Assembly: GCF_003390325.1 (NCBI RefSeq)
Contig: NZ_QUOK01000007.1
Coordinates: forward strand, 186,001-250,000
Source: Rhodohalobacter sp. SW132
Lineage (GTDB): Bacteria > Bacteroidota > Rhodothermia > Balneolales > Balneolaceae
Reading direction: 5' to 3'
Length of the DNA stretch: 64,000 bases
Shown here: positions 39,416-64,000 of the stretch, one piece after another
Numbering within the stretch: the first letter of the stretch is position 1
Layout of the letters: every line of letters starts with the position of its first letter
Position numbers and translations under genes: made by a program
Notes under the pieces: model-generated
What the model was told of the DNA's origin: nothing
Database searches by the model: none
The model's input: the letters and a program-made list of their open reading frames with translations, nothing else

Positions 39416-40201
39416 CTAGGAGTCTGTCGGGCTTGACTCGAATGTGAAGAAAAAAATATCAGAATGGCTCAACGATTTGTCCGGATTCCCGAATGGATTG
39501 AATTTTTATCTATTTTCATTTTCAGATATAGGATCCCCGGGTTTATTCTCCCGCCAACACATGCATTCTCTTCAAATTGTAGGCGCATTGCACCAGATTC
39601 CACTCACCATTGATCTTCTCCAGGCCTCTGAAAAGGAATTGACGGAATCCCATCATGTGTTTTATAATTCCAAAGAACGGCTCGACCGTAGATTTTCGCC
39701 TTGCGTAAAACTCCCGGCCTTCCTTCGTCTTCAGTCGCCACTTCATCATTTCGGTTGGCGTTGCATCGTCCGGGGGCGGGCCGGGATCGGACAGGCGTTC
39801 GGCCCAGCATCATACGTGGGTGGTAAGCATCCGACTCGCTGCCGGTGTAGGTTCCTTCCAGGGTAGAAATATCCAGCTGGTCGACAATTTCGACCACAAA
39901 TCGGGCAAGGTGATCCTCCGGAAGCCAGTCGTCAACAGAGGGTGGGAGCAGATAGGCGGTATCTCGATCAACTAAGCGAAAATTAGCAGACATAGCAGCT
40001 TGTAGATTCGGTTTAAAAGTCCATTAAACATAATGATTTAGAGGCAGGGAATCTGGCAAATATTCGTAGTTTTTCGATCATTTGAGGCGAGAAGTGGCGA
40101 TAAATAACAGATAAACTCGGCTCATGTTTGGACGCAACACGTAAAAGAGAGTCATGGGTCGAAATCGCGGAAAATTTACCTTAAGTCCGACAGACTCCTA
40201 G
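39416..40201 (-). mobile_element. Internally deleted IS1182-like insertion sequence
   Basis: The left end CTAGGAGTCTGTCGGGCTT (39416-39434) and right end AAGTCCGACAGACTCCTAG (40183-40201) are inverted repeats, perfect over 15 bp and one mismatch over 19. Between them, on the minus strand, is a transposase with its N-terminus (VDRDTAYLLPPSVDDWLPED, then YHPRMML; from 39993) and its C-terminus (EGREFYARRKSTVEPFFG, then NLKRMHVLAGE; to 39543), but about half of the reading frame, including the first catalytic acids, is deleted and the frame is shifted. At 786 bp it is about half the usual size. CTAG at each outer edge could be the target duplication. Confidence 0.75.
39543..39993 (-). pseudogene. 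Truncated, frameshifted IS1182-type transposase
   Basis: The N-terminal domain (about 65 codons from 39993) joins out of frame to the last 65 codons of the transposase. The retained end holds STVEPFFGIIKH, the YREK-like glutamate region of DDE transposases, but the first two acidic residues are lost, so it cannot be active. Confidence 0.7.
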
Positions 40202-52078: not shown

Positions 52079-53020
52079 ATGAAGCTTTTCAGGATTAAGG
52101 AGGGCACTCTAAAAAAAATTCAGCAAGACCCGTTCAAGCTCGAAAAAGATATTCAGGAGCTGGTAGAGCAGAATACAGAAACCTTGTTTAGTCTCGAATT
52201 TGTGAAATCTGAGTTTAGTGTTGACAGCTTTCGCCTGGATACTCTCTGTTTTGATCCGGAAACGAAGTCTTTTACGATAGTTGAATACAAAAAAGATAAA
52301 AACTTCTCCGTTATTGATCAGGGATACACTTATCTCTCGTTGCTGCTCAATAATAAAGCTGAGTTTATTCTTGAATATAATGAGACAACCGGTCAGACTT
52401 TAAAACGAGGGGATGTAGATTGGTCTCAGTCACGGGTGATCTTTATATCTCCGCGGTTTACAAACTATCAGAAGCATTCCGTAAATTTTAAAGATGTTCC
52501 GTTTGAACTATGGGAGATTCACAAGTACCAAAATGGCACGATCGGCCTTACAAAGCATGAGTCTGATTCCGATGTGCGAATTGACAGCACATCTTCAGAC
52601 AAATCGGACTCCGTGATGAAGTCTGTGTCCAAAGAAGTGAAGGTGTATGATGAAGAGTATCACCTGTCAAAAAATAAAAACCGTCCCCCTGAAATCGAAG
52701 AGCTTTACTTCAAGATAAGAGATCGAATATTAGATCTGGGTGATGATATTGAGACCAAATACCTTGCTCAAACAATTCAGTTTAAACTGGAAAAATCTTT
52801 TGTTGATCTGATTATCTACAATTCCGGTGTGATCGCCATAATCAATTTGAAAAAAGGTGAGCTGGATGATCCCCGCAACGAAACCAAAGATTTGAGCGAA
52901 AAAGGCCATTGGGGAAATGGAGATTATAAATTTAAATTTACACCGGGTGACGAGTTAGAGTATGGTATATATCTAATTAAGCAAGCGTATGAGAGCAAAT
53001 CCAAAAGTGAATTGGGGTAG
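52079..53020 (+). CDS. DUF5655 protein with NucS-like nuclease domain
   Basis: This 313-residue protein has an N-terminal PD-(D/E)XK-type domain: LVEQNTETLF, then RLDTLCFD and IVEYKKDKNF, where Asp, Glu and Lys can form the metal site. The C-terminal 110 residues (PPEIEELYFKIRDRILDLG, KSFVDLIIYNSGVIAIINL) match DUF5655, often attached to such nuclease domains. It opens a run in which the next gene starts 8 bp later and hsdM follows after another 3 bp, so it belongs to the restriction operon. Confidence 0.82.
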   Translation: MKLFRIKEGTLKKIQQDPFKLEKDIQELVEQNTETLFSLEFVKSEFSVDSFRLDTLCFDPETKSFTIVEYKKDKNFSVIDQGYTYLSLLLNNKAEFILEYNETTGQTLKRGDVDWSQSRVIFISPRFTNYQKHSVNFKDVPFELWEIHKYQNGTIGLTKHESDSDVRIDSTSSDKSDSVMKSVSKEVKVYDEEYHLSKNKNRPPEIEELYFKIRDRILDLGDDIETKYLAQTIQFKLEKSFVDLIIYNSGVIAIINLKKGELDDPRNETKDLSEKGHWGNGDYKFKFTPGDELEYGIYLIKQAYESKSKSELG

Positions 53021-53028
53021 ATTTATCG

Positions 53029-54114
53029 ATGAAAAAATCAGCTGCTGAGGCCATTAATAAATACTTATCTCACTGTAAACAATCGCAATGGGTTTACGAA
53101 GAGGCATATAAATTTGAATTCGCCAACTACTTAAACGGAAATGTAGAATGGGAAAGTCAGTCTGACTCTGAAATACTTGAGATTCTAAAGCAATCTCAAA
53201 AGATAAGATATACAGGAAATGTGCCCGGTATACAGTTCATTCTTAGAAGTGCCCGTGAAAAAATGAGTGAATATATTGGAATTGAAGATATCAGAAATTT
53301 CAGGCAGATTTACAAAGGGGCAAGTATTGATCAGGTTGATTGGAATGATCGCAATACATCCTACCCGGGAATATCATCTTGGCTGGGTTCCTTATTCCCT
53401 GATAGATTTTATCCGGTACCTGTTACTGATTTTAGAGAATCAATTTTGTATTTATTTGATACTGGTAAAAGCAGGTTTCCAAAAGTTGGGCTACCATATA
53501 TTATTGCCTGCCAATCGTATTTTGAGGAAACGGAACAAGAGCTCAGGAAATATCCACTTGAGGAGTTATTCATATCTGAGCATAACAGGTTTTATAAAGA
53601 AAACCCTGATCTCAAAATTTCTCTAAAAAGAAAATTTGATAACATTGACTGGGTATGGGCAGTTCAGGATTTCCACCTTTTTGTATATCGTGAGGTGCTT
53701 GGTTTATATAAAGATCGAACTTCGGAAGATGATATTCAGGATGAACATTCCGACGAGATAGTTGAAGGAAAGAGTGTAACAGCAATCCATAAGCGGTATG
53801 AAAGAAATAGTTCATTGGTCAAAAGGGTAAAAGAGCGCCGTTTGAAGGATGACCCTTTTTTGCAATGTGAGGTGTGTGGATTCTCATTTATGGAAACCTA
53901 TGGGGATATTGGAAAAGGTTTTATTGAAGCTCATCATCTGAATCCATTAAGTGAGAGAGATGGAGAGCAGGTGACCAATAAAAAAGAGATTGCGTTGGTT
54001 TGCAGCAACTGTCACAATATGCTGCACAAAGGAGATCCAGTTTTTGAACTGACAGACTTGAAGAAAAAAATGGCTGGAAACAGTAAGCAGAACTATAAAG
54101 ATTTAGATAACTAA
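53029..54114 (+). CDS. HNH endonuclease
   Basis: The C-terminal 90 residues of this 361-residue protein form an HNH domain with CEVCGFSF, GFIEAHHLNPLSE and ALVCSNCHNMLHKG: two CxxC zinc sites and the HH...N...H active site. This ScoMcrA/Type IV-like subtype is common in defence loci. The first 260 residues are helical and unfamiliar (YNRNTSYPGISSWLG-like, FPDRFYPVPVTDFRESILY) and may read DNA marks or partner with the nuclease before it. The stop is 3 bp before hsdM. Restriction of modified or foreign DNA is inferred. Confidence 0.85.
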   Translation: MKKSAAEAINKYLSHCKQSQWVYEEAYKFEFANYLNGNVEWESQSDSEILEILKQSQKIRYTGNVPGIQFILRSAREKMSEYIGIEDIRNFRQIYKGASIDQVDWNDRNTSYPGISSWLGSLFPDRFYPVPVTDFRESILYLFDTGKSRFPKVGLPYIIACQSYFEETEQELRKYPLEELFISEHNRFYKENPDLKISLKRKFDNIDWVWAVQDFHLFVYREVLGLYKDRTSEDDIQDEHSDEIVEGKSVTAIHKRYERNSSLVKRVKERRLKDDPFLQCEVCGFSFMETYGDIGKGFIEAHHLNPLSERDGEQVTNKKEIALVCSNCHNMLHKGDPVFELTDLKKKMAGNSKQNYKDLDN

Positions 54115-54117
54115 CCC

Positions 54118-56535
54118 ATGCCAATAAAAAAGTCAGACCTTTACGCATCTATCTGGAAATCGTGCGATCAGCTGCGCGGGGGGATGGATGCCTCGCAGTA
54201 CAAGGATTATGTGCTCACCATTTTGTTTATCAAGTATGTGTCGGATAAGTATTCCGGGAGGGATGATGCACTGCTGATTATTCCGGATGGCTCTTCGTTT
54301 GACGATATGGTGGCGCTGAAGGGAAAGGCCGATATCGGGGACCGGATTAACAAGGAGATTATTGCGCCGATTGCCGAGGCGAACGACCTGAAGGGGGTGA
54401 TTGACCAGACCGATTTTAACGACGATGAGAAGCTGGGAAGCGGTAAGGATAAGGTAAACCGGCTCAGCAACCTGATTGGAATTTTCCAGGATGCCAACCT
54501 CGATTTTGGCGGCAACCACGCAGGGGACGATGATCTACTGGGCGATGCCTATGAATACCTAATGAGAAACTTTGCCACGGAATCGGGCAAGAGCAAGGGA
54601 CAGTTTTATACGCCGGCTGAGGTGTCGCGTATTTTGGCGAAGGTGATTGGTGTGGAGAATGCCGACAGCCCAGCGCTAACCGCATATGACCCCACAGCGG
54701 GATCGGGATCGCTGATTTTGAAAGTGGCCGATGAAGCCCCGGTGGATATTACGATTTACGGGCAGGAGATGGATGTGGCGACCACGGCCCTGGCGAAGAT
54801 GAATATGGTGCTGCACAATCGTCCGGAGGCCGTACACGATATCATGCGTGGTAATACACTGGCCGATCCCAAGTTTACCGACAGCGGATCTCTCAAACGC
54901 TTCGATTTTGTGGTAGCAAATCCGCCGTTTTCCTTTAAATCGTGGACCAACGGACTCGATCCGGAGAATGATCCTTACAATCGCTTTGAAGGTTTCGGGA
55001 TACCGCCGTCCAAGAACGGAGATTATGCGTTTCTGCTGCATATCGTGAAATCGCTGAAGAGTACCGGAACCGCGGCAGTGATTCTGCCTCATGGCGTGCT
55101 CTTCCGGGGCAATGCTGAGGGGCGCATCCGCGAGAACCTGATCGAGCGCGGCTACATTAAAGGAATAATTGGTCTGCCGGCCAACTTGTTTTACGGAACG
55201 GGTATTCCGGCGTGTATCCTGGTGCTGGATAAGGAGCAGGCCGGGTCGCGCGATGGAATCTTTATGATCGATGGCAGCGAGGGTTACCTCAAGGATGGTA
55301 ATAAGAACCGGCTTCGGGAGCGGGATATCCACAAGATTGTGGATCTGTTCCGTGAGCAGAAGGAAACAGCAGGTTTCTCCCGTTTTGTGCCGAATGAAGA
55401 GATCCGCGCCAACGAGTACAACCTCAACATCCCCCGGTATATCGATAGCAGCACCGAGGAGGATATCCAGGATATTGAAGGCCATCTGAAGGGTGGTATT
55501 CCCGAGCGGGATGTGGAAGGCATGAACCGCTTCTGGGAGGTCTATCCCGGAATAAAAGATGCGCTGTTTGAGCCGCTCCGTGACGGCTACCTGCAGTTGA
55601 AGGTGGAGAAGGATGCCATCAACGAGTCGGTATTTGCTCACCCGGAGTTTAGCAGGTACAGCACGGAGCTTTCGGAGCTGTTTGAGGGTTGGAAGTCAGC
55701 TCATTACGAATCCATTAAAACCATTGACGCCGATACCCGTCCCAAAGAGTTTATTGCAGAGATCGCCGAAGACCTGCTGGACCGCTACCGGGGCAAGGCG
55801 CTGATCGATCCCTATGATATTTACCAGCACCTGATGAACTATTGGTTTGATACCCTGCGCGATGATGTGTACATGATTGTGGAGGATGGCTGGACGGCCA
55901 CGCTGGAGCCGGTTCGCAACAGCAAAGGCAAGATCAAGAAAGGAGAATTTACCTGCGAGCTGATTCCCAAAGAGCTGGTGATTGACCGCTACTTTTCAGA
56001 TCAAAAAGCGCATATTGAGGAGTTGAAACAACAGCAGGAAGAAGCTTTGCAGATGATGGAAGAGTCGGAGCAGGAACACGCCGTGGAGGGCGGGCTGCTG
56101 GAGGAGGCGATGAGCGACTCAGGCAATGTGACCAAAGGAAATCTCACCTCGCGTATGAAAGAGATTAAGGACGATCGTGAGTATTTCGCTGAGTATGCCA
56201 CCATGAAGCACTATAAAAAGTGTTACGACCTGGAGCGAAAAGCCAAAAAAATGGTGAAGGAAGCTGAGAAAAAGCTGGACAAGCAGGTGATTGAGAATTA
56301 CCCACAGCTCACGGAAGACGAAGTAAAAACCCTGGTGGTGGACGATAAATGGCTGCCCACCATAAAAGGACAAATTGACGACGAAGTGGAGGCGATTTCC
56401 CGTAGTCTCACTCAGCGAGTCAACGAGCTGGCCGGCAGGTATGATAAAGCCGTGGTAGAGATTGATGAAGAAGTGAACGAGCTGGAAAACCGTGTACAGT
56501 CTCACCTGGAAGCGATGGGGGTTGAATGGAGTTAA
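54118..56535 (+). CDS. hsdM: Type I restriction-modification methyltransferase subunit
   Basis: This 805-residue HsdM starts with the helical N-terminal domain (WKSCDQLRGGMDASQYKDY). The SAM-binding motif I is AYDPTAGSGSLILK near 190 and the catalytic motif IV is VANPPF near 266, which together make it an N6-adenine methyltransferase. The C-terminal 200 or so residues form a long charged coiled-coil (EELKQQQEEALQMMEESE), making it longer than the common 500-residue form. It overlaps hsdS by 10 bp. The complex should be two HsdM with one HsdS. Confidence 0.95.
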   Translation: MPIKKSDLYASIWKSCDQLRGGMDASQYKDYVLTILFIKYVSDKYSGRDDALLIIPDGSSFDDMVALKGKADIGDRINKEIIAPIAEANDLKGVIDQTDFNDDEKLGSGKDKVNRLSNLIGIFQDANLDFGGNHAGDDDLLGDAYEYLMRNFATESGKSKGQFYTPAEVSRILAKVIGVENADSPALTAYDPTAGSGSLILKVADEAPVDITIYGQEMDVATTALAKMNMVLHNRPEAVHDIMRGNTLADPKFTDSGSLKRFDFVVANPPFSFKSWTNGLDPENDPYNRFEGFGIPPSKNGDYAFLLHIVKSLKSTGTAAVILPHGVLFRGNAEGRIRENLIERGYIKGIIGLPANLFYGTGIPACILVLDKEQAGSRDGIFMIDGSEGYLKDGNKNRLRERDIHKIVDLFREQKETAGFSRFVPNEEIRANEYNLNIPRYIDSSTEEDIQDIEGHLKGGIPERDVEGMNRFWEVYPGIKDALFEPLRDGYLQLKVEKDAINESVFAHPEFSRYSTELSELFEGWKSAHYESIKTIDADTRPKEFIAEIAEDLLDRYRGKALIDPYDIYQHLMNYWFDTLRDDVYMIVEDGWTATLEPVRNSKGKIKKGEFTCELIPKELVIDRYFSDQKAHIEELKQQQEEALQMMEESEQEHAVEGGLLEEAMSDSGNVTKGNLTSRMKEIKDDREYFAEYATMKHYKKCYDLERKAKKMVKEAEKKLDKQVIENYPQLTEDEVKTLVVDDKWLPTIKGQIDDEVEAISRSLTQRVNELAGRYDKAVVEIDEEVNELENRVQSHLEAMGVEWS

Positions 56536-57791
56536 TTGCTGAAAAAATGAAAGGGGTGAAGCAAACAGAGATTGGGTTGATTCCCAAGGATTGGGAAGTT
56601 AAAGTTATAGATCAATTGACTTATCGGGTTGGTGATGGTATTCATGCAACCCCTAATTATGACGAATCGGGATCGTACTATTTCATTAATGGAAATAATC
56701 TTTCGAAGGGTAAAATATTCGTTAATGAAAACACAAAGAAAGTATCAGAAGATGAGTTTGAAATTCACAAACGTGATTTATCCGATTCAACAATACTTCT
56801 ATCGATAAATGGGACAATTGGAAATGTAGCGTTTTACCGAAATGAACCAGTCTTGCTGGGTAAAAGCGCAGCATATTTGAATGTATCTCCTAATGCAAAA
56901 AAGGAATATCTGTTTTATCAGCTTCAGACAGAATACGTTCAGGAATACTTCTACAATAATTTAACAGGTACGACAATTAAAAATTTGGGATTGGGAGCAA
57001 TCCGAAGCACTCCAATCCCTCTCCCCCCAACCCTCGCCGAACAACAAGCCATTGCCTCGGCCCTCAGCGATGTGGATGAGCTGATCCGCTCTCTCGACGG
57101 ACTGATCCAAAAAAAACAGGCCATCAAAAAAGGCACCATGCAGCAGCTCCTTACTGGTAAAAAACGCCTGCCTGGGTTTAATGGGGAATGGGAGGTCGTT
57201 AGTATTGGTGAACTACTTGAATTTAAGAATGGTCTAAATAAAGCCAAGGAGTACTTTGGACAGGGAACTCCAATCATCAATTATATGGATATTTTTAGGC
57301 ATTCTGGATTGATGGAGAGCAATATAAAAGGAAAAGTAACCTTGAATAAAAGTGAAATCCGAAGATTCGATGTCCAAAAAGGTGATGTCTTTTTTACAAG
57401 AACTTCTGAGACTGTCAATGAAATTGGTATTTCAAGTGTACTTGAAGAGAATATTGGGGATGGAGTTTTTAGTGGTTTCATTTTAAGAGGTAGACCAATA
57501 AATAATCGCTTGAGTTTAAAGTTTAAACGTTATTGCTTTAGGTCTGAGCCAGTACGAAAACAAATTGTTGCTATGGCGACTTATACCACAAGGGCATTAA
57601 CAAATGGTCGCCAATTGTCGAAAGTTAAACTTCCAGTTCCCCCGAGTGATACCGAACAAAAAGCCATTGCCCAAATCCTGTCCGACATGGACCGTGAACT
57701 CCAAACCCTCCGCCAAAAGCGGGAGAAGTACGTACAGATTAAACAGGGGATGATGCAGGAGTTGTTGACGGGGAGGGTGAGGTTGGTGTGA
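56526..57791 (+). CDS. hsdS: Type I restriction-modification specificity subunit
   Basis: This 421-residue HsdS has two target recognition domains separated by conserved helices. TRD1 runs about 20-175; the central conserved region is PPTLAEQQAIASALSDVDEL followed by KKGTMQQLLTGKKRLPGF. TRD2 runs about 225-375, and the distal conserved region is PPSDTEQKAIAQILSDMD with MMQELLTGRVRLV at the end. The two central/distal blocks are near repeats, as expected for a bipartite target. Its last 30 bases reappear as degenerate copies at 58810-58839 and 60167-60192. Confidence 0.95.
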   Translation: MELIAEKMKGVKQTEIGLIPKDWEVKVIDQLTYRVGDGIHATPNYDESGSYYFINGNNLSKGKIFVNENTKKVSEDEFEIHKRDLSDSTILLSINGTIGNVAFYRNEPVLLGKSAAYLNVSPNAKKEYLFYQLQTEYVQEYFYNNLTGTTIKNLGLGAIRSTPIPLPPTLAEQQAIASALSDVDELIRSLDGLIQKKQAIKKGTMQQLLTGKKRLPGFNGEWEVVSIGELLEFKNGLNKAKEYFGQGTPIINYMDIFRHSGLMESNIKGKVTLNKSEIRRFDVQKGDVFFTRTSETVNEIGISSVLEENIGDGVFSGFILRGRPINNRLSLKFKRYCFRSEPVRKQIVAMATYTTRALTNGRQLSKVKLPVPPSDTEQKAIAQILSDMDRELQTLRQKREKYVQIKQGMMQELLTGRVRLV

Positions 57792-57843
57792 ATGGGGGTT
57801 TAAATAGAGCTAAATATATTACAAAACAATCACTTATAGATTT

Positions 57844-58758
57844 ATGAATATTTGGAGAGTTAATATCAAACCTGCTTCAAGCGAGGGTATTGATCCAAGA
57901 AGTTTCTGCATTACAAGGGATATACTTGGGATAGGCTGGGGAATTGAAACAGATTCCGAAACGGTAACATGGGATGAGTATTATTCCAATGCAAACTCAC
58001 TTTACAGGCTTAAATTAAACTATAAAGGATGGTGGCCCGCATTAAATGCACTAAAAAATAGAATTGCTGAAGATGACCTGTGCTGGACAAGAGATTTGGA
58101 TGGAATCTATTATTTAGGCAGGATAACTAATCCGTATTGGTACTATTCCAATAAACCTGAATTTAAAAAAGCAGATGTAGTAAACATAAGAGATTGCAAG
58201 TGGTATAAAGTTGGCCAAGTTGATTCTGTACCTGGAACAATAGTAAACAGATTTACAAGAGGCCGAACCGTTGAAAAAGTGGGAGATAAAAACGGCACAT
58301 TACGAGAGTTTTCAAAGTATTTGTTTAACACTATAAGTAATGTCCAATATTACAGAATAAAGCAAGTAGAAGCCGATTTTTATTCTTTGATCCATTCAGA
58401 CGATTGTGAGGATATCATAGGTTTATACTTGCAGAGTAAAGGTTACTATATGATTCCAAGTTCATGCAAAAAAAGCACTGTAAATTTCGAATATGTTTTA
58501 AAACACAAAGAGGATGGACATAAAGCAGTAGCTCAGGTGAAAAAAGGTAAGGTTGATTTGAATTTTAACAACTACAGTGAGTTGGATGCTAAAGTGTATT
58601 TATTTACCACGAAAGGAAAATATTTAGGCAAGCCATCATCAAATATTTCCGTAATTGAAAAAGAAGTGCTACAAGATTTTGTTGATAAAAACTATGAAAT
58701 TTTGCCTAACAAAATCCAAACATGGCTTGGTATTCATAATCATTTAAAAAAGACATGA
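57844..58758 (+). CDS. Putative modified-DNA reader plus Mrr-like nuclease
   Basis: This 304-residue protein appears two-part. The N-terminal half (IWRVNIKPASSEGIDPRSF, DILGIGWGIE, DDLCWTRDLDGIYYLGRIT, then SVPGTIVNRFTRG) has the look of a PUA/EVE-like reader fold. The C-terminal half has LIHSDDCEDIIGLYLQSKGY, VNFEYVLKH and AVAQVKKGKVDL; the QVK triad near 230 matches the QxK site of Mrr-type nucleases, with acidic candidates upstream. A Type IV restriction enzyme cutting modified DNA is the best guess. Its stop overlaps an ATG starting an hsdR-like remnant. I do not know a named family. Confidence 0.55.
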   Translation: MNIWRVNIKPASSEGIDPRSFCITRDILGIGWGIETDSETVTWDEYYSNANSLYRLKLNYKGWWPALNALKNRIAEDDLCWTRDLDGIYYLGRITNPYWYYSNKPEFKKADVVNIRDCKWYKVGQVDSVPGTIVNRFTRGRTVEKVGDKNGTLREFSKYLFNTISNVQYYRIKQVEADFYSLIHSDDCEDIIGLYLQSKGYYMIPSSCKKSTVNFEYVLKHKEDGHKAVAQVKKGKVDLNFNNYSELDAKVYLFTTKGKYLGKPSSNISVIEKEVLQDFVDKNYEILPNKIQTWLGIHNHLKKT

Positions 58759-58839
58759 CCGACATTGACAAAAATTGTCGAAATAGACTAAAACGGATGA
58801 AATAAGAAAGTGTTGACTGATAGTACGAGGTTAGTGTGA
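58755..58839 (+). pseudogene. Scar: hsdR 5' remnant joined to hsdS 3' remnant
   Basis: ATGACCGACATTGAC at 58755 overlaps the upstream stop by 4 bp and opens a 16-codon frame (MTDIDKNCRNRLKRMK) resembling the hsdR start (MTDVGQVERNTQDRV). Directly after, GTGTTGACTGATAGTACGAG at 58810-58829 continues to a TGA and encodes VLTDSTRLV-stop, like the hsdS end LLTGRVRLV-stop. Both pieces are short, but their order, hsdR start then hsdS end, is that of a tandem junction of two type I loci. Confidence 0.5.
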
Positions 58840-58880
58840 GGTGATATTGTTGAGTGTAATTAAATCAAACAAAGAATATT

Positions 58881-60011
58881 ATGTATCAGATAGACGAAAC
58901 ACGTAATAAGATCAACCGGCTTAAAGAGGAAACCTTTTCAGATTTGGGGTTTAAAGAAAGAGAGCATCTACAAGAGTGGATTTCAAAAGATCCGGATTGC
59001 CTCGGAGAAGAGCTACTGATTATTCAGAAAGAGTTCGACGGTTTTCAGGACACACGCGAACGCCTCGATTTATTAGCCATTGACAAACAGGGCAATCTTG
59101 TAATCATTGAAAATAAACTCGATGACAGTGGAAAGGATGTCACGTGGCAAGTAATAAAATATGCCTCATACTGTAGCAGCCTTAGCAAAGATGATATTCG
59201 CAGTATCTTTCAGGATTACTTAAAGAAAAGTGGACAGGAAGCTGATGCTGAGGAAAATCTCGCGGAATTTTTAGATAAAGAAGATTTTTCTGAGGTGCTT
59301 CTTAACCAAGGTGCTGCCCAGCGTATAATAATGATTGCTGCACAATTCAGAAAAGAAGTTACCTCTACTGTCCTATGGTTGATGAATTTTAATATTCGTA
59401 TTCAATGCTTTAAAGTCACTCCTTATACATTTGGGGATCAGCTATTCTTAAACTTTGATCAGATTCTACCGGTCGTAGATGCTCAGGAATATTCCATCAG
59501 CATGGCATCAAAAGCACAAGAAGAAATTGCGACTCAGGAAAACCTGAAGCAGCGTCATCACATCCGGCTTGAGTTTTGGCGTAAATTCTTGGGTCACGTT
59601 AACAGGAAAAATAGCCTTTTCTCCAATATCTCTCCTTCAAAAGAAAACTGGTTGGGTACCGGCATTGGAATGAGCGGTTTAAGCCTAAACATGGTGGTTT
59701 CTGGGAAATATGCGAGAGCAGAGCTGTTTATAAATCGCGAGACGAAGGAAGAGAGTAAGACATGCTTCGACTATTTATATAGCAAAAAAGATCAAATCGA
59801 AAACGATTTTGGAGATTCACTTGTATGGGAGAGAAAAGATCAGAATAAAACCTGCAGGATTAAGGCTCAAAAAGATGGTCTATCTTTGTATGATAAAGAA
59901 GACTGGGATGAAATGATTGAGCACATGTCGGATGTTGGTGAACGGATGGAAAAAGCTCTGAGAAATCCGGTTAAACAGTTAAATGTAAAAATTAAGAGAG
60001 GGGACTTATAA
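58881..60011 (+). CDS. DUF4268 protein with NucS-like PD-(D/E)XK domain
   Basis: This 376-residue protein has an N-terminal nuclease-like domain with EREHLQEWISKDPDCLGEEL, then RLDLLAIDKQGNLVIIENKL: an Asp and a Glu-x-Lys suited to metal binding. It is followed by WQVIKYASYCSSL and a C-terminal DUF4268 domain (about 225-376, HHIRLEFWRKFLGHVN, GIGMSGLSLNMVVSGKYARA). Such proteins are often found in defence islands. Its activity is unproven. It lies alone between two hsdS-like scars. Confidence 0.82.
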   Translation: MYQIDETRNKINRLKEETFSDLGFKEREHLQEWISKDPDCLGEELLIIQKEFDGFQDTRERLDLLAIDKQGNLVIIENKLDDSGKDVTWQVIKYASYCSSLSKDDIRSIFQDYLKKSGQEADAEENLAEFLDKEDFSEVLLNQGAAQRIIMIAAQFRKEVTSTVLWLMNFNIRIQCFKVTPYTFGDQLFLNFDQILPVVDAQEYSISMASKAQEEIATQENLKQRHHIRLEFWRKFLGHVNRKNSLFSNISPSKENWLGTGIGMSGLSLNMVVSGKYARAELFINRETKEESKTCFDYLYSKKDQIENDFGDSLVWERKDQNKTCRIKAQKDGLSLYDKEDWDEMIEHMSDVGERMEKALRNPVKQLNVKIKRGDL

Positions 60012-60483
60012 ATTTTCGCGATACTTAATACTACAATTACTCACTGAGAAGTTGAGGTTTATTTAGTAATAGGGATTTCTTAGGTCTAAAAAATCTGCTG
60101 CCTTGTTATTAGTAAAGCTCCTTGAAGAAAACTCTTCAAGAGAAAGGACTGTGAAGCACTGTTAGTAGTTGTTGACGGGGTGTTAGGTTGGTTTAGTTGG
60201 ATTGACGTCATTTCGCAAAGCTTTAATAACACAATCCCGAATGGGATATTGTCAATAACTATGTCTGCATTTCGGGATTAAGATGTAGGAATCCAACCCA
60301 AAAAGTTGAAGTCATTGAGCGTTAATAGCCTTGGAAGTTACACGATTGGGAAAAGTTTGTGGTTGAAAAAGTGAGTTTATTATTTTGGGCAATTTGAGTA
60401 GTTAAGCTGTTTAGCGATATGTCGATAAAGGGAGAAGTAGAGTAAATATATTTCATATTTAAACTTCAAGAATACTATTTATT
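60012..60483. repeat. Intergenic region with second hsdS 3'-end scar
   Basis: No gene is seen. AGTTGTTGACGGGG at 60167-60180, followed by TGTTAGGTTGGT, matches the end of hsdS (57760-57787) with a small deletion. AATCCCGAA at 60233-60241 is the inverse of TTCGGGATT at 60271-60279, a weak 9-bp stem. Confidence 0.45.
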
Positions 60484-61308
60484 ATGGGACTATCAGCAGG
60501 TAAAATCTACTTAACAGACATCATGTCTATTGAGCATGCTGATCAATATAAAGTTCACCTTGCAGTTCGAAATGATGATGGGCAAGAACCATTAGATACC
60601 TTTGTACAAGATCGTAAATCATGGAAAGGTTGGAATAGCTACCGGGGTAATAAAAATAGGTTCAATAAAACTTATATCTTTTCCATGATGGATTATTATC
60701 CTCAGAAAGATATTTGGCTGTTTGGAGGTGTTTTTGAAGTATTAAAACGCCACAGTGACAGTTATGAAATTGAACTAACCGACCAGTTCAAGCCAATGAT
60801 TGGAAAGCTGAAGATTCACTTTCCGTATAAATCAAGGACACGGGCACTTGTGTTGAATCGTCATATTCAAAATATGTCAGTCCATGAAATACTCCCAAAA
60901 ATGTATGATGGGGAGGCATTTCGGGGGTTTGAAAATATCCGACTCAGTTTTAACGAACTACAAAACATCATCCACAAGCAACGCATTGATTGGAAAACGG
61001 CTCTTGAAAATGTATCAGGTATCTATTTGATAGTAGACAAAAGTAACGGTAAAAAATATGTGGGGTCTGCTTACGGGAGTGAAGGTTTATGGTCGCGGTG
61101 GGCTCAGTATGTAAAAAGTGGTCATGGGAGCAATAAAGACTTAAAAAATCTCATCACGTATAATGGCGTAGATCATGCTCGAAATAATTTCCAATTCAGT
61201 TTATTGGAATACATGCCTGCTTCTACCTCCAAAGATGTTGTAATCAACAGGGAAAGCCACTGGAAAAAAGTGCTTTTGAGTGGTGAGTATGGTTATAACT
61301 TAAATTAG
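60484..61308 (+). CDS. GIY-YIG nuclease-domain protein
   Basis: This 274-residue protein has a C-terminal GIY-YIG domain: SGIYLIVDKSNGKKYVGSAY near 177 provides GIY and YVG, with WSRWAQYVKSGHGSN, FSLLEYMPAS and the metal Glu in NRESHWKK. The first 170 residues form an unfamiliar domain (SIEHADQYKVHLAVRNDDG, DIWLFGGVFEVLKR) that may recognise the DNA target. It is not UvrC or a homing enzyme of known type. A role in restriction is inferred from context. Confidence 0.8.
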   Translation: MGLSAGKIYLTDIMSIEHADQYKVHLAVRNDDGQEPLDTFVQDRKSWKGWNSYRGNKNRFNKTYIFSMMDYYPQKDIWLFGGVFEVLKRHSDSYEIELTDQFKPMIGKLKIHFPYKSRTRALVLNRHIQNMSVHEILPKMYDGEAFRGFENIRLSFNELQNIIHKQRIDWKTALENVSGIYLIVDKSNGKKYVGSAYGSEGLWSRWAQYVKSGHGSNKDLKNLITYNGVDHARNNFQFSLLEYMPASTSKDVVINRESHWKKVLLSGEYGYNLN

Positions 61309-61333
61309 GCTATCTAAAACAAATAGGCTTATC

Positions 61334-62116
61334 GTGAAGAATGATCGTATAAACAAAATAAATAAAATTCTAAGAGAGTATTTTAAACGAAACGCTGGTA
61401 TTGAAATGATTCCAGCCAAAGATCTGATGCCTGAGTTTATAGAAGCAGGTATATATAATAAGGATCATCGAAATGGTCTGCCAATTCGAAATGATTTAAG
61501 GGAACTGGATGAAAAGGGAGAACTTAACAGTATTCCGTTTGTGCATGTTATCAGGAAAAATGTGAATAGAAATTGGTATTTCATTCCTTCTGGAACGAAT
61601 ATTGAGGAACTGAGGGGAAATTTTACTGGCTCTACCAGTAAGAAAACATCAAAGAAGAAAAACCGGGCAGGCAAAAATAATAAAGACAGTGACGAGAATT
61701 ATATTCTGGATCTTTGTGATGAGGTGTTGGGTCTAAGGGGCTTTCGACAACACCGGTTTGATTTCCTTTTTGGCGACCTCCATCGCAATGGGAAAACACG
61801 CACAAAGCTCCCATGTGATATTTACTATCCCGATCTGGATTTGGTAATAGAATACAATGAACGGCAGCATACAGAATCTATCAAGCACTTCGATAAACCG
61901 GACAAACAAACTATTAGCGGAGTGCACCGTGGAGAACAGCGTCTTCGCTATGATGAGAGAAGACGAAAGGTGCTTCCCCAGCATGGGATTATGGTTATCG
62001 ACTTTTCATACTTCGATTTTGAACACAACGGCAACCGGAGATTGAAACGGAATAAGAAACGAGATTTAGCTATTATTAAACAAACTTTTGAAAGTAATGG
62101 AGTATTGGTAGAGTAA
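61334..62116 (+). CDS. Putative PD-(D/E)XK nuclease, uncharacterised
   Basis: This 260-residue protein starts at GTG, 25 bp after the GIY-YIG gene, so the two are probably co-translated. The first 90 residues look like a winged-helix domain (REYFKRNAGIEMIPAKDLMP). A basic linker (KKTSKKKNRAGKNNK) follows. The C-terminal part has FDFLFGDLHRNGKTRTKLPC, DIYYPDLDLVIEYNERQHTE and QRLRYDERRRKVLPQHGIMV, a VSR/DUF559-like core with Asp and Glu metal ligands near 163-180. I do not know a named family; nuclease activity is inferred. Confidence 0.6.
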   Translation: MKNDRINKINKILREYFKRNAGIEMIPAKDLMPEFIEAGIYNKDHRNGLPIRNDLRELDEKGELNSIPFVHVIRKNVNRNWYFIPSGTNIEELRGNFTGSTSKKTSKKKNRAGKNNKDSDENYILDLCDEVLGLRGFRQHRFDFLFGDLHRNGKTRTKLPCDIYYPDLDLVIEYNERQHTESIKHFDKPDKQTISGVHRGEQRLRYDERRRKVLPQHGIMVIDFSYFDFEHNGNRRLKRNKKRDLAIIKQTFESNGVLVE

Positions 62117-62263
62117 TTAAAGTTGAAATAAACTTCTTTGTGAAAAAACCATTACCACTGTAGACCAAAACTGATAAAAGTAGGGTGTCGTAAACTATCG
62201 TTTCGTTTATTTCGTTTAATTATCTAAATTAAAGAGAAATTACACAATAAATGGAGAACGAGA

Positions 62264-62713
62264 ATGGAAGCACTAAAACTGCCTACCCGCAAGGAACAGA
62301 TGATTGCGCGGGAGAATAAGAAGATTCTCGATCGCATAGCCGAGAAGCTGAAGACATCTACAAAAGAGATTGAGATTGAAGTACAAGGTGAGAAAGACCC
62401 TATTAAAATACCTGTATCAGCATTACAGCATTTAAACACGATTATCGATCTGATGGCACAGGGAAAAGCTGTCACAGTGAATCCTGTGGATGCCGAAATC
62501 ACAACTCAGGAAGCTGCTGATCTGCTGAATGTTTCCCGTCCTTATATAGTAAAGCTTCTTGAAGGAGGGGAAGTCCCTTTTCATAAGGTGGGTTCGCATC
62601 GCCGGATTAAACTGAAGGATTTTCTTGCCTACAAAAATCAGTATAAAAACAAGCAGCGTGAAGCGTTGGATGAACTTGCCAAACAAGCCCAGGAATTAGA
62701 TATGGGATATTGA
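62264..62713 (+). CDS. Excisionase-type HTH antitoxin
   Basis: This 149-residue protein has a helical N-terminal half (REQMIARENKKILDRIAEKL-like) and a MerR/excisionase-like HTH_17 domain near 85-130: TTQEAADLLNVSRPYIVKLL, then GEVPFHKVGSHRRIKLKDFL. A PIN-domain gene starts 4 bp downstream, the common antitoxin-toxin arrangement for this HTH type. It should bind its own promoter in the 147-bp gap upstream. Confidence 0.82.
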   Translation: MEALKLPTRKEQMIARENKKILDRIAEKLKTSTKEIEIEVQGEKDPIKIPVSALQHLNTIIDLMAQGKAVTVNPVDAEITTQEAADLLNVSRPYIVKLLEGGEVPFHKVGSHRRIKLKDFLAYKNQYKNKQREALDELAKQAQELDMGY

Positions 62714-62717
62714 ACAT

Positions 62718-63287
62718 ATGCATTCAGACAGACTGAGAGTAATTCTTGATGCGTGTGTTTTATATCCTGCCCCAATTAGAGATCTATTATTAACATTTGC
62801 CGTCTCTGGTTTATTTCAGCCCCTTTGGTCAGAAGAGATACAGGATGAATGGAAGCGAAACTTGCTTGCAAACAGGACGGATTTATCATCGGAGCAATTG
62901 AATTGGACTATTAACCGAATGAATGATTCTTTGCCAGATGCAAACGTAACAGACTACCAGCATTATATTTCTAAGATCACATTACCAGATAAAGATGACC
63001 GCCATGTAGTTGCTGCTGCAATCAAAGGAAATGCGGATGTAATAGTGACATTCAACTTGAATGACTTTCCACGATCTGTTCTTTTACCATTTGGTATTGA
63101 ACCAGTGCACCCGGACCAGTTTACGCTTGATGTAATTGATTTGGATGAGAAATCAGCCATTGAAGGATTTAGAACAATGGTGGGGCGATTAAGAAATCCA
63201 CCTTTAACAAATGATGACGTGTTATCCGCACTTAAAAAAACGGGGATACGGAAAGGTGCAAACAAACTTCAAAAACTGTTAGATTAA
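62718..63287 (+). CDS. PIN-domain RNase toxin
   Basis: This 189-residue protein begins RVILDACVLYPAPIRDLLLT with the first catalytic Asp. Acidic positions follow in EEIQDEWKRNLL, DKDDRHVVAAAIKGNADVIV and TFNLNDFPRSVL. This is the PIN_3-like group paired with HTH_17 antitoxins. The fold is a metal-dependent RNase, presumably cutting tRNA or mRNA when freed. Its location before hsdR would make loss of the island costly. Confidence 0.85.
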   Translation: MHSDRLRVILDACVLYPAPIRDLLLTFAVSGLFQPLWSEEIQDEWKRNLLANRTDLSSEQLNWTINRMNDSLPDANVTDYQHYISKITLPDKDDRHVVAAAIKGNADVIVTFNLNDFPRSVLLPFGIEPVHPDQFTLDVIDLDEKSAIEGFRTMVGRLRNPPLTNDDVLSALKKTGIRKGANKLQKLLD

Positions 63288-63366
63288 ACCTCTTATTTAA
63301 GATTTTTGTCAATTTATTAATAAGAATCCGGCTATTTAACATTTTACCGAAAAACGTAAACAAGAT

Positions 63367-64000
63367 ATGACCGACGTTGGCCAAGTAGAACGAAATACAC
63401 AGGACCGGGTTATTCAACTGTTTGCGGGCCGGTTGGGATATGAGTACCTGGGAGACTGGCAGGACCGCGTTGATAACCGAAATATTGAAGAGAAATATCT
63501 TCGGGCGTTTCTGAAGAAACAGGGTCATAAGCCTGTGATCATTGATAAAGCTGTCCACGAGCTAACCAAAGCGGCAGGCGTTCAGACGGAAGACTTGTAT
63601 GACATCAATAAGGCAGTATACCGGATGCTGCGGTATGGCGTGAGCGTAAGAGCCGGTCAGGGTGAAAAGAGGCAGACGATCTATTTTATCGACTGGAAGA
63701 AAACGGAGAACAATCACTTTGCCGTTGCCGAAGAGGTTACGGTAAAAGGTAAACACAACAAACGCCCGGATGTGGTTCTGTATGTGAACGGAATAGCCAT
63801 CGGGGTTATAGAGCTAAAGCGATCCAAAGTATCGGTTGAGGAGGGCATTCGTCAAAACCTCGACAATCAGACCGATCATTTCATCAAGTCGTTCTTTAAT
63901 ACAATTCAGCTCGTGATGGCCGGAAATGAAACGGCTGGACTGAGGTATGGAACCACCGAAACGCCAGAAAAATACTACCTTCGCTGGAAGGAGACCACCG
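63367..64000 (+). CDS. hsdR: Type I restriction endonuclease subunit, 3' end outside window
   Basis: The frame is open from the ATG at 63367 to the window end (211 codons of an expected 1000 or so). The N-terminal nuclease domain is visible: MTDVGQVERNTQDRVIQLF, YLGDWQDRVDNRN, then RPDVVLYVNGIAIGVIELKR near 132-152, giving the PD...ELK catalytic triad. It completes the type I system with hsdM and hsdS, although 5.6 kb of cargo separates them. The motor domains are out of view. Confidence 0.92.
   Translation, partial: MTDVGQVERNTQDRVIQLFAGRLGYEYLGDWQDRVDNRNIEEKYLRAFLKKQGHKPVIIDKAVHELTKAAGVQTEDLYDINKAVYRMLRYGVSVRAGQGEKRQTIYFIDWKKTENNHFAVAEEVTVKGKHNKRPDVVLYVNGIAIGVIELKRSKVSVEEGIRQNLDNQTDHFIKSFFNTIQLVMAGNETAGLRYGTTETPEKYYLRWKETT

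Follow-up and report, generated by a model that had tools for sequence, protein, structure and literature searches.

What kind of protein is encoded between the specificity and restriction genes of a Type I operon in Rhodohalobacter sp. SW132? The gene lies at positions 57844–58758 on the forward strand of the window, by which we mean the whole stretch of 64,000 nucleotides that was analysed, from a genome of 5.08 Mb. An earlier note, made from the letters of the DNA, had proposed that the product joins an EVE/PUA-like reader to a QxK, Mrr-like nuclease, had recognised no named family for it and had suggested that it may be an undescribed Type IV restriction enzyme. Base modification lets phages evade restriction, and many enzymes that recognise modified bases have never been tested. 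The family to which the protein belongs, here called EVE-QxK, is compact; its reader and active site are clearly predicted, and its role can be inferred by substitution within a slot. We consider it likely that the protein is a single-chain modification-dependent (Type IV-like) restriction enzyme. The two-domain kind is already known (PDC-S02; the EVE-PD(D/E)XK class), and the protein is a further member of it.

Domain architecture and conserved residues

The reading frame (+ strand, ATG start, 304 residues) was confirmed together with its coordinates and the two strings quoted in the earlier note, AVAQVKKGK and a reader-like N-terminal string. It divides into an N-terminal EVE-like domain (residues 1–170, 57844–58353) and a C-terminal PD-(D/E)XK nuclease domain (residues 171–304, 58354–58755). 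A Pfam scan of the protein returned no family at E ≤ 1, neither EVE (PF01878) nor Mrr_cat (PF04471); because the PF01878 profile was unmatched, we call the N-terminal domain EVE-like and not a Pfam EVE domain. The NCBIfam search gave nothing and PHROGs nothing meaningful, and PDB sequence searches with the single protein or a 14-row profile gave chance matches only.

The supposed lack of a named family did not stand, since PADLOC already models the family as PDC-S02. Its profile PDLC04816 (positions 1–294 of 299) covers residues 1–298 of the protein with E 7.9e-109, and was matched by 14 of the 14 aligned family members. PDC-S02 is, however, a candidate label covering several sub-models, and one of them, PDLC04799, is matched (E 1.1e-149) by a protein (L044:6067–6990) whose nuclease half is of the NucS_C type, unlike that of the protein studied here. 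PDC-S02 is only listed in the available text of PMC11719660. In the available part of Bell et al. (2020; PMC7641849), EVE-PD(D/E)XK proteins with the same domain pair and the same predicted role are listed as putative Type IV restriction enzymes; the class is a predicted one there, without reported activity. The description of the enzyme as undescribed was thus only partly right: the family had been modelled and the class predicted in 2020, and in the literature searched, with preprints and most subscription journals outside it, we found no experimental study of the EVE-QxK family, which appears biochemically uncharacterised in that literature.

The letters QxK are weak evidence when taken alone, because at least one QxK was present in 54% of 5,000 shuffles of the protein; the real protein has two (Q197SK and Q231VK). 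It is conservation that raises Q231-V-K233 above chance. Alignment A4 comprised 14 full-length members, the window protein and 13 relatives 25–62% identical to it, from Balneola relatives, Bacteroidota, Psychromonas, alphaproteobacteria, Bacillota, a Clostridioides phage and a Levilactobacillus plasmid (also a viral contig). Left out were a frameshifted (L016), a truncated (L023) and a split copy (L028), six plasmid records (H3, H5, H6, H7, H11 and H13), and L040–L042, which are 99–100% identical to the query L020. Fourteen of the 304 residues, all encoded on the + strand, are invariant in 14/14 members. In the N-terminal half these are G31-W32 (57934–57939), W81 (58084–58086), a candidate base-pocket residue, D111 (58174–58176) and V129-P130-G131 (58228–58236); in the C-terminal half they are E189 (58408–58410), E216 (58489–58491), Q231-V232-K233 (58534–58542), L253 and F279.

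Structures were predicted with AlphaFold2. The whole protein, taken with six relatives, was modelled with a mean pLDDT of 83.3 and a pTM of 0.75 (five-model means from 83.3 down to 61.2), and the C-terminal domain alone with a pLDDT of 85.4 (five models, 82.9–85.4); in the stretch 206–214, just before E216, pLDDT was below 50. In the model, E189 is borne by the first nuclease helix (185–198), E216 takes the place of the catalytic Asp/Glu directly before strand 2 (217–221), and Q231-V-K233 lies on strand 3 (227–233), which is the order of the PD-(D/E)XK core. By this order QVK would lie near the acidic residues. The secondary-structure order and the matches with AF1548, MspJI and AspBHI likewise indicate a predicted alpha-beta-beta-beta-alpha-beta core. 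On this model the three elements are placed as in a PD-(D/E)XK active site, with conserved acidic residues followed by (D/E/Q)XK as in the Mrr-like enzymes of that fold. MspJI-type enzymes mostly have Asp as the second acidic residue before QxK; here Glu (E216) stands where Asp would be expected, which is a point against the restriction reading. The available text of two reviews (PMC12707154, PMC3874153) states a PD-QxK site for MspJI and E. coli Mrr.

When the whole protein was compared with the PDB by Foldseek, VcaM4I (EVE-HNH) came first with E 2.4e-3 and no match was under 1e-3. In VIA-align, where Z below 8 may reflect a common arrangement, the N-terminal domain of the predicted model matched VcaM4I (Z 8.7; 127 residues, 3.7 Å), PH1033 (Z 8.1) and YTH domains (about 7.8), which is consistent with a PUA-like barrel with EVE features. 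The N-terminal matches listed were EVE and YTH, the sole full-length MspJI row having an rmsd of 18.6; the missing SRA rows are no evidence against an SRA relation. Residues 178–294 of the whole model matched AF1548 (Z 7.3), AspBHI (7.1) and MspJI (7.1), and the C-terminal domain alone matched AF1548 (7.2), MspJI (7.0) and AspBHI (6.8), then mostly other PD-(D/E)XK nucleases. These fold scores are middling (Z 7–8.7, and the Foldseek value given above as the best), so that the argument rests on the agreement of both halves with the motif and the context. In a profile comparison the family aligned over both domains with L005, a protein of 326 residues (probability 94.9, E 4.6e-8), with QVK on EVK; the C-terminal half of L005 is a Pfam Mrr_cat domain (E 1.7e-24) and its N-terminal part is EVE-like. 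Structure prediction and a fold search of the two halves, which the earlier note had suggested, thus gave both a PUA-like barrel and a PD-(D/E)XK fold, and the proposal of an EVE/PUA-like reader followed by a QxK nuclease holds up on the predicted model.

VcaM4I (6yex), the best structural match of the reader domain, is also about 300 residues long with the reader first, but its nuclease is HNH and not PD-(D/E)XK, and identity over the aligned part is 13%. According to the available part of its description, its EVE domain holds a flipped modified base in a pocket of P24, W82 and Y130. The invariant W32, W81 and VPG may be set beside these residues, with no claim of residue equivalence; a PDB sequence search with L005 to map the VcaM4I pocket gave nothing usable. 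MspJI and AspBHI have the C-terminal fold (Z 6.8–7.1) and the QxK site in common with the protein, whereas their reader is SRA-like and the one here EVE-like.

The hsdS–hsdR interval in sister operons

The operon in the window includes hsdM (54118–56535, +; N6_Mtase E 1.2e-102; PADLOC MTase_I) and hsdS (56526–57791, +; Methylase_S E 3.2e-32; PADLOC Specificity_I), the latter ending 52 nt upstream of the EVE-QxK gene. This is followed, all on the + strand, by a PDC-S11 gene (58881–60011; E 4.6e-164), whose product combines DUF4268 (E 3.2e-34) with a NucS-like nuclease part and is a second candidate in the slot; a gene for a UzuA-like GIY-YIG protein (60484–61308; PADLOC UzuA E 1.9e-59, GIY-YIG E 1.1e-5); and one for a weakly, and tentatively, PvuRts1I-like protein (61334–62116; Pfam E 0.021, below the cut-off, PADLOC mREase_II E 8.9e-4). 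An HTH_17 protein (62264–62713; E 7.8e-13), probably the antitoxin, and a PIN-domain protein (62718–63287; PIN_3 E 1e-10), probably the toxin, come next. The open frame of hsdR starts at 63367, and its first 211 codons run to the end of the window at 64000; the rest of the gene (1013 residues in all; seen whole in L043) and a YgjP-like metallopeptidase gene lie just beyond. The G+C content of the EVE-QxK gene is 0.34 against 0.52 for hsdM, and 0.32–0.33 in other copies from the same bacterial family; to judge by composition, this fits acquired cargo.

Several further genes were seen around the operon. Two more probable defence genes, PDC-S18 (E 1.2e-120) and an HNH endonuclease, occupy 52079–54114 just before hsdM. 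Downstream of hsdR and the metallopeptidase gene, L043:7715–10644 holds a MotA-like gene, an OmpA-domain gene and an HNH gene, which we take to resemble a Zorya-type system. Upstream of the defence region, a reverse-strand frame at 39604–39993 reads by eye like a transposase fragment.

In three genera the EVE-QxK gene was found inside a Type I operon, in the interval from hsdS to hsdR. In Balneola sp. EhC07 (L024) a close relative, 59% identical, overlaps hsdS by 4 nt and stops 14 nt before hsdR; in the third genus (L044) the family gene overlaps hsdR by 4 nt and is preceded, in tandem, by the second PDC-S02 protein mentioned above. The three operons are orthologous, with HsdM 84–87% and HsdR 74–80% identical to those of the window. 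We then took a census of the slot in 92 genomes of the window's bacterial family, counting hsdR at E ≤ 1e-100. It was present in eight, and the hsdS–hsdR interval was resolved in six (L049 and L053, at contig edges, were left out). Three of the resolved slots hold the EVE-QxK family, one McrBC (L050; a McrB-like AAA gene and McrC), one two GmrSD (L051) and one neither (L052). In the last, which carries PDDEXK_3 and an HTH+PIN pair, the edge of the stretch removes the start of hsdM, and hsdR is split among several frames. Accepted modification-dependent systems thus occupy 2/3 of the resolved slots without the family, and it is these two slots that give the Type IV reading independent support. 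The swap with McrBC and GmrSD in the same slot points to modification-dependent restriction.

The interval 52079–64000 together with L043:1–4408 is a multi-gene cargo slot, whose sister contents are McrBC, two GmrSD, two EVE-nucleases, or HTH+PIN. What is new in this analysis is the hsdS–hsdR position in three genera and the slot exchange with McrBC and GmrSD. A wider interpretation, to which we give even chances, is that the Type I operon of this bacterial family serves as a cartridge slot. Unrelated modification-dependent enzymes (McrBC, GmrSD pairs, EVE-QxK) would be swapped there as whole genes, sometimes overlapping hsd genes and sometimes with two EVE-nuclease subfamilies in tandem, one operon would carry both modes of policing DNA, and EVE-QxK would read a class of base that the m6A-making host lacks.

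There are precedents for parts of this arrangement. The hsdS–hsdR gap is called a potential hotspot in the available text of PMC12255303, for operons with a downstream M48 metallopeptidase gene, a layout much like that of the window operon; if the present interpretation is true, it supports the idea that complementary defences are exchanged at such intervals. According to the part of PMC12707154 that was available, a GmrSD homologue replaces McrBC in some E. coli immigration control regions, which is the same kind of swap as in the slot here. TgvAB, in the Type I operon of VPI-2, is also a modification-dependent enzyme inside a Type I operon, and the available text of PMC11411939 describes it as proved against T-even phages; it consists of two GmrSD-family proteins with proved activity, whereas EVE-QxK is one predicted protein.

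Other contexts and competing explanations

The EVE-QxK family is rare. Full-length members were found in 4 of 394 phylum genomes (any PDLC04816 match, 13/394), in 14 of 72,556 plasmid records, 13 of them spanning 80% or more of the query, and in 1 of 50,697 phage records. Full-length counts with profile A1 were 1/349 (the centre itself) and 4/344 (the centre and three with the coordinates of L002–L004). A scan of genome contigs gave no relatives with the single protein and five with a four-sequence profile, and in IMG/VR, scanned with both the single protein and a profile, relatives were confined to one Levilactobacillus prophage group. The tree of the family departs from that of the hosts: L045, a copy in the window's bacterial family, clusters with Gluconobacter (support 0.96), and between the Psychroflexus (L026) and Mariniphaga (L028) copies identity is 93% over 214 residues.

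Outside the slot, the family gene lies upstream of another hsdM-hsdS (L045), adjoins hsdRMS on a Lactiplantibacillus plasmid (L022), is divergent in Rufibacter (L027) from BREX genes that profiles identify as brxA and brxC, at a distance of about 375 bp, and is near a Hachiman-like pair of DUF1837 and helicase genes (L019). These neighbours count for the restriction reading. No restriction genes were recognised in the stretches seen around L015, L018, L020, L025 and L026, where neighbours were partly scanned. Relatives of this kind (L025, L026, L015, L020) count against it, as do the lack of a Pfam EVE or Mrr_cat match and the middling fold scores. It is the fold of both halves, the invariant E189, E216 and QVK, the L005 profile match and the slot swap that favour a restriction enzyme.

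Four other explanations were weighed. It is rather unlikely that the protein is an abortive-infection nuclease or toxin, in which the EVE domain would sense infection or lost methylation, the nuclease would attack host DNA and Type I methylation would be the antidote. EVE proteins are noted both beside Type I systems and in toxin-antitoxin contexts in the available part of Bell et al. (2020; PMC7641849), the slot also contains an HTH+PIN pair, and VcaM4I, as far as its available description goes, becomes a toxic nuclease once reader and linker are removed. However, the present protein is the product of a single gene, and the copies without a Type I operon next door (L025, L026 and L020) mean that there is no fixed antidote partner.

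A reader of modified RNA (tRNA, rRNA or mRNA), which would make the protein an RNA-directed effector and not a DNA restriction enzyme, seems quite improbable. YTH domains, m6A readers mostly of RNA, do come near the EVE score (about 7.8 as compared with Z 8.7), and the EVE-like domains of CoCoNuT are predicted, in the available text of PMC11090510, to meet RNA. The C-terminal domain, on the other hand, matches DNA nucleases almost throughout. PD-(D/E)XK RNases are rare, and the slot alternatives present in sister operons, McrBC and GmrSD, act on DNA.

Very unlikely, too, is a repair nuclease of the NucS/EndoMS kind, specific for DNA structures or mismatches: EndoMS chains are among the top Foldseek matches (E 2.5e-3 for the whole protein, 1.3e-2 for the C-terminal domain), but VIA-align ranks MspJI, AspBHI and AF1548 (Z 6.8–7.2) above EndoMS (5.0–5.2), and the patchy distribution and the plasmid, prophage and restriction-operon contexts argue against repair. 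That the protein is an accessory part of the Type I enzyme which tunes HsdR or HsdS is hardly credible. The family gene does overlap hsdS (L024) or hsdR (L044) by 4 nt, but it is missing from the orthologous operons L050, L051 and L052, and some copies elsewhere have no recognised hsd genes.

For the modification-dependent restriction enzyme that we prefer, the analysis shows two predicted folds, an invariant motif and the gene's place in the operon; base reading, cleavage, the oligomer, the target base and the anti-phage effect are what we infer. The EVE-like domain would flip out and read a modified base in phage DNA, and the E-E-QxK nuclease domain, probably dimeric or tetrameric, would cut the DNA nearby with a divalent metal. 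The gene would be an exchangeable cargo between hsdS and hsdR, with a division of labour: foreign DNA without modification would be destroyed by the Type I enzyme, and phages protected from Type I by their modified bases would be left to the EVE-QxK enzyme. If this is true, an EVE-guided QxK enzyme is added, and with it a potential reagent for mapping modified bases.

Candidate target base and degraded copies

The C5-methyltransferase family PF00145 has no match in the window genome and is present in 4 of the 7 hosts with an intact copy. The N6-methyltransferase family PF02384 has five matches in the window genome and at least three in each of the eight hosts tested. Since the operon makes m6A and the window genome has no C5-methyltransferase match, a modified cytosine or a hypermodified phage base would be likelier than generic m6A, which the N6-methyltransferase matches in all eight hosts also make unlikely. 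Generic 5mC cannot be the target in the 4/7 hosts with C5-methyltransferases, which counts against the restriction reading, and is in turn unlikely as a family-wide target. To judge from these gene counts, the candidate targets left are hypermodified phage bases or a specific sequence context. An argument for 5mC from the split Mariniphaga copy beside a C5-methyltransferase, as against the intact Psychroflexus copy, was dropped, because the Psychroflexus genome has a C5-methyltransferase too.

Some copies are degraded. The Mariniphaga copy (L028:3971–6835) is interrupted by about 1.9 kb of inserted DNA, in which a reverse-strand frame of 544 codons has no Pfam match, and is followed by a Vsr gene, the C5-methyltransferase gene and a weak match to a Type II nicking enzyme. 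Broken plasmid copies, which are common for defence genes, were seen at L016:3711–4683 (in two frames) and L023:6001–6519 (cut short beside transposases). We also noticed that public entries label members on Streptococcus salivarius plasmids (L018:5992–6885) as 'ribonuclease D', apparently a misannotation.
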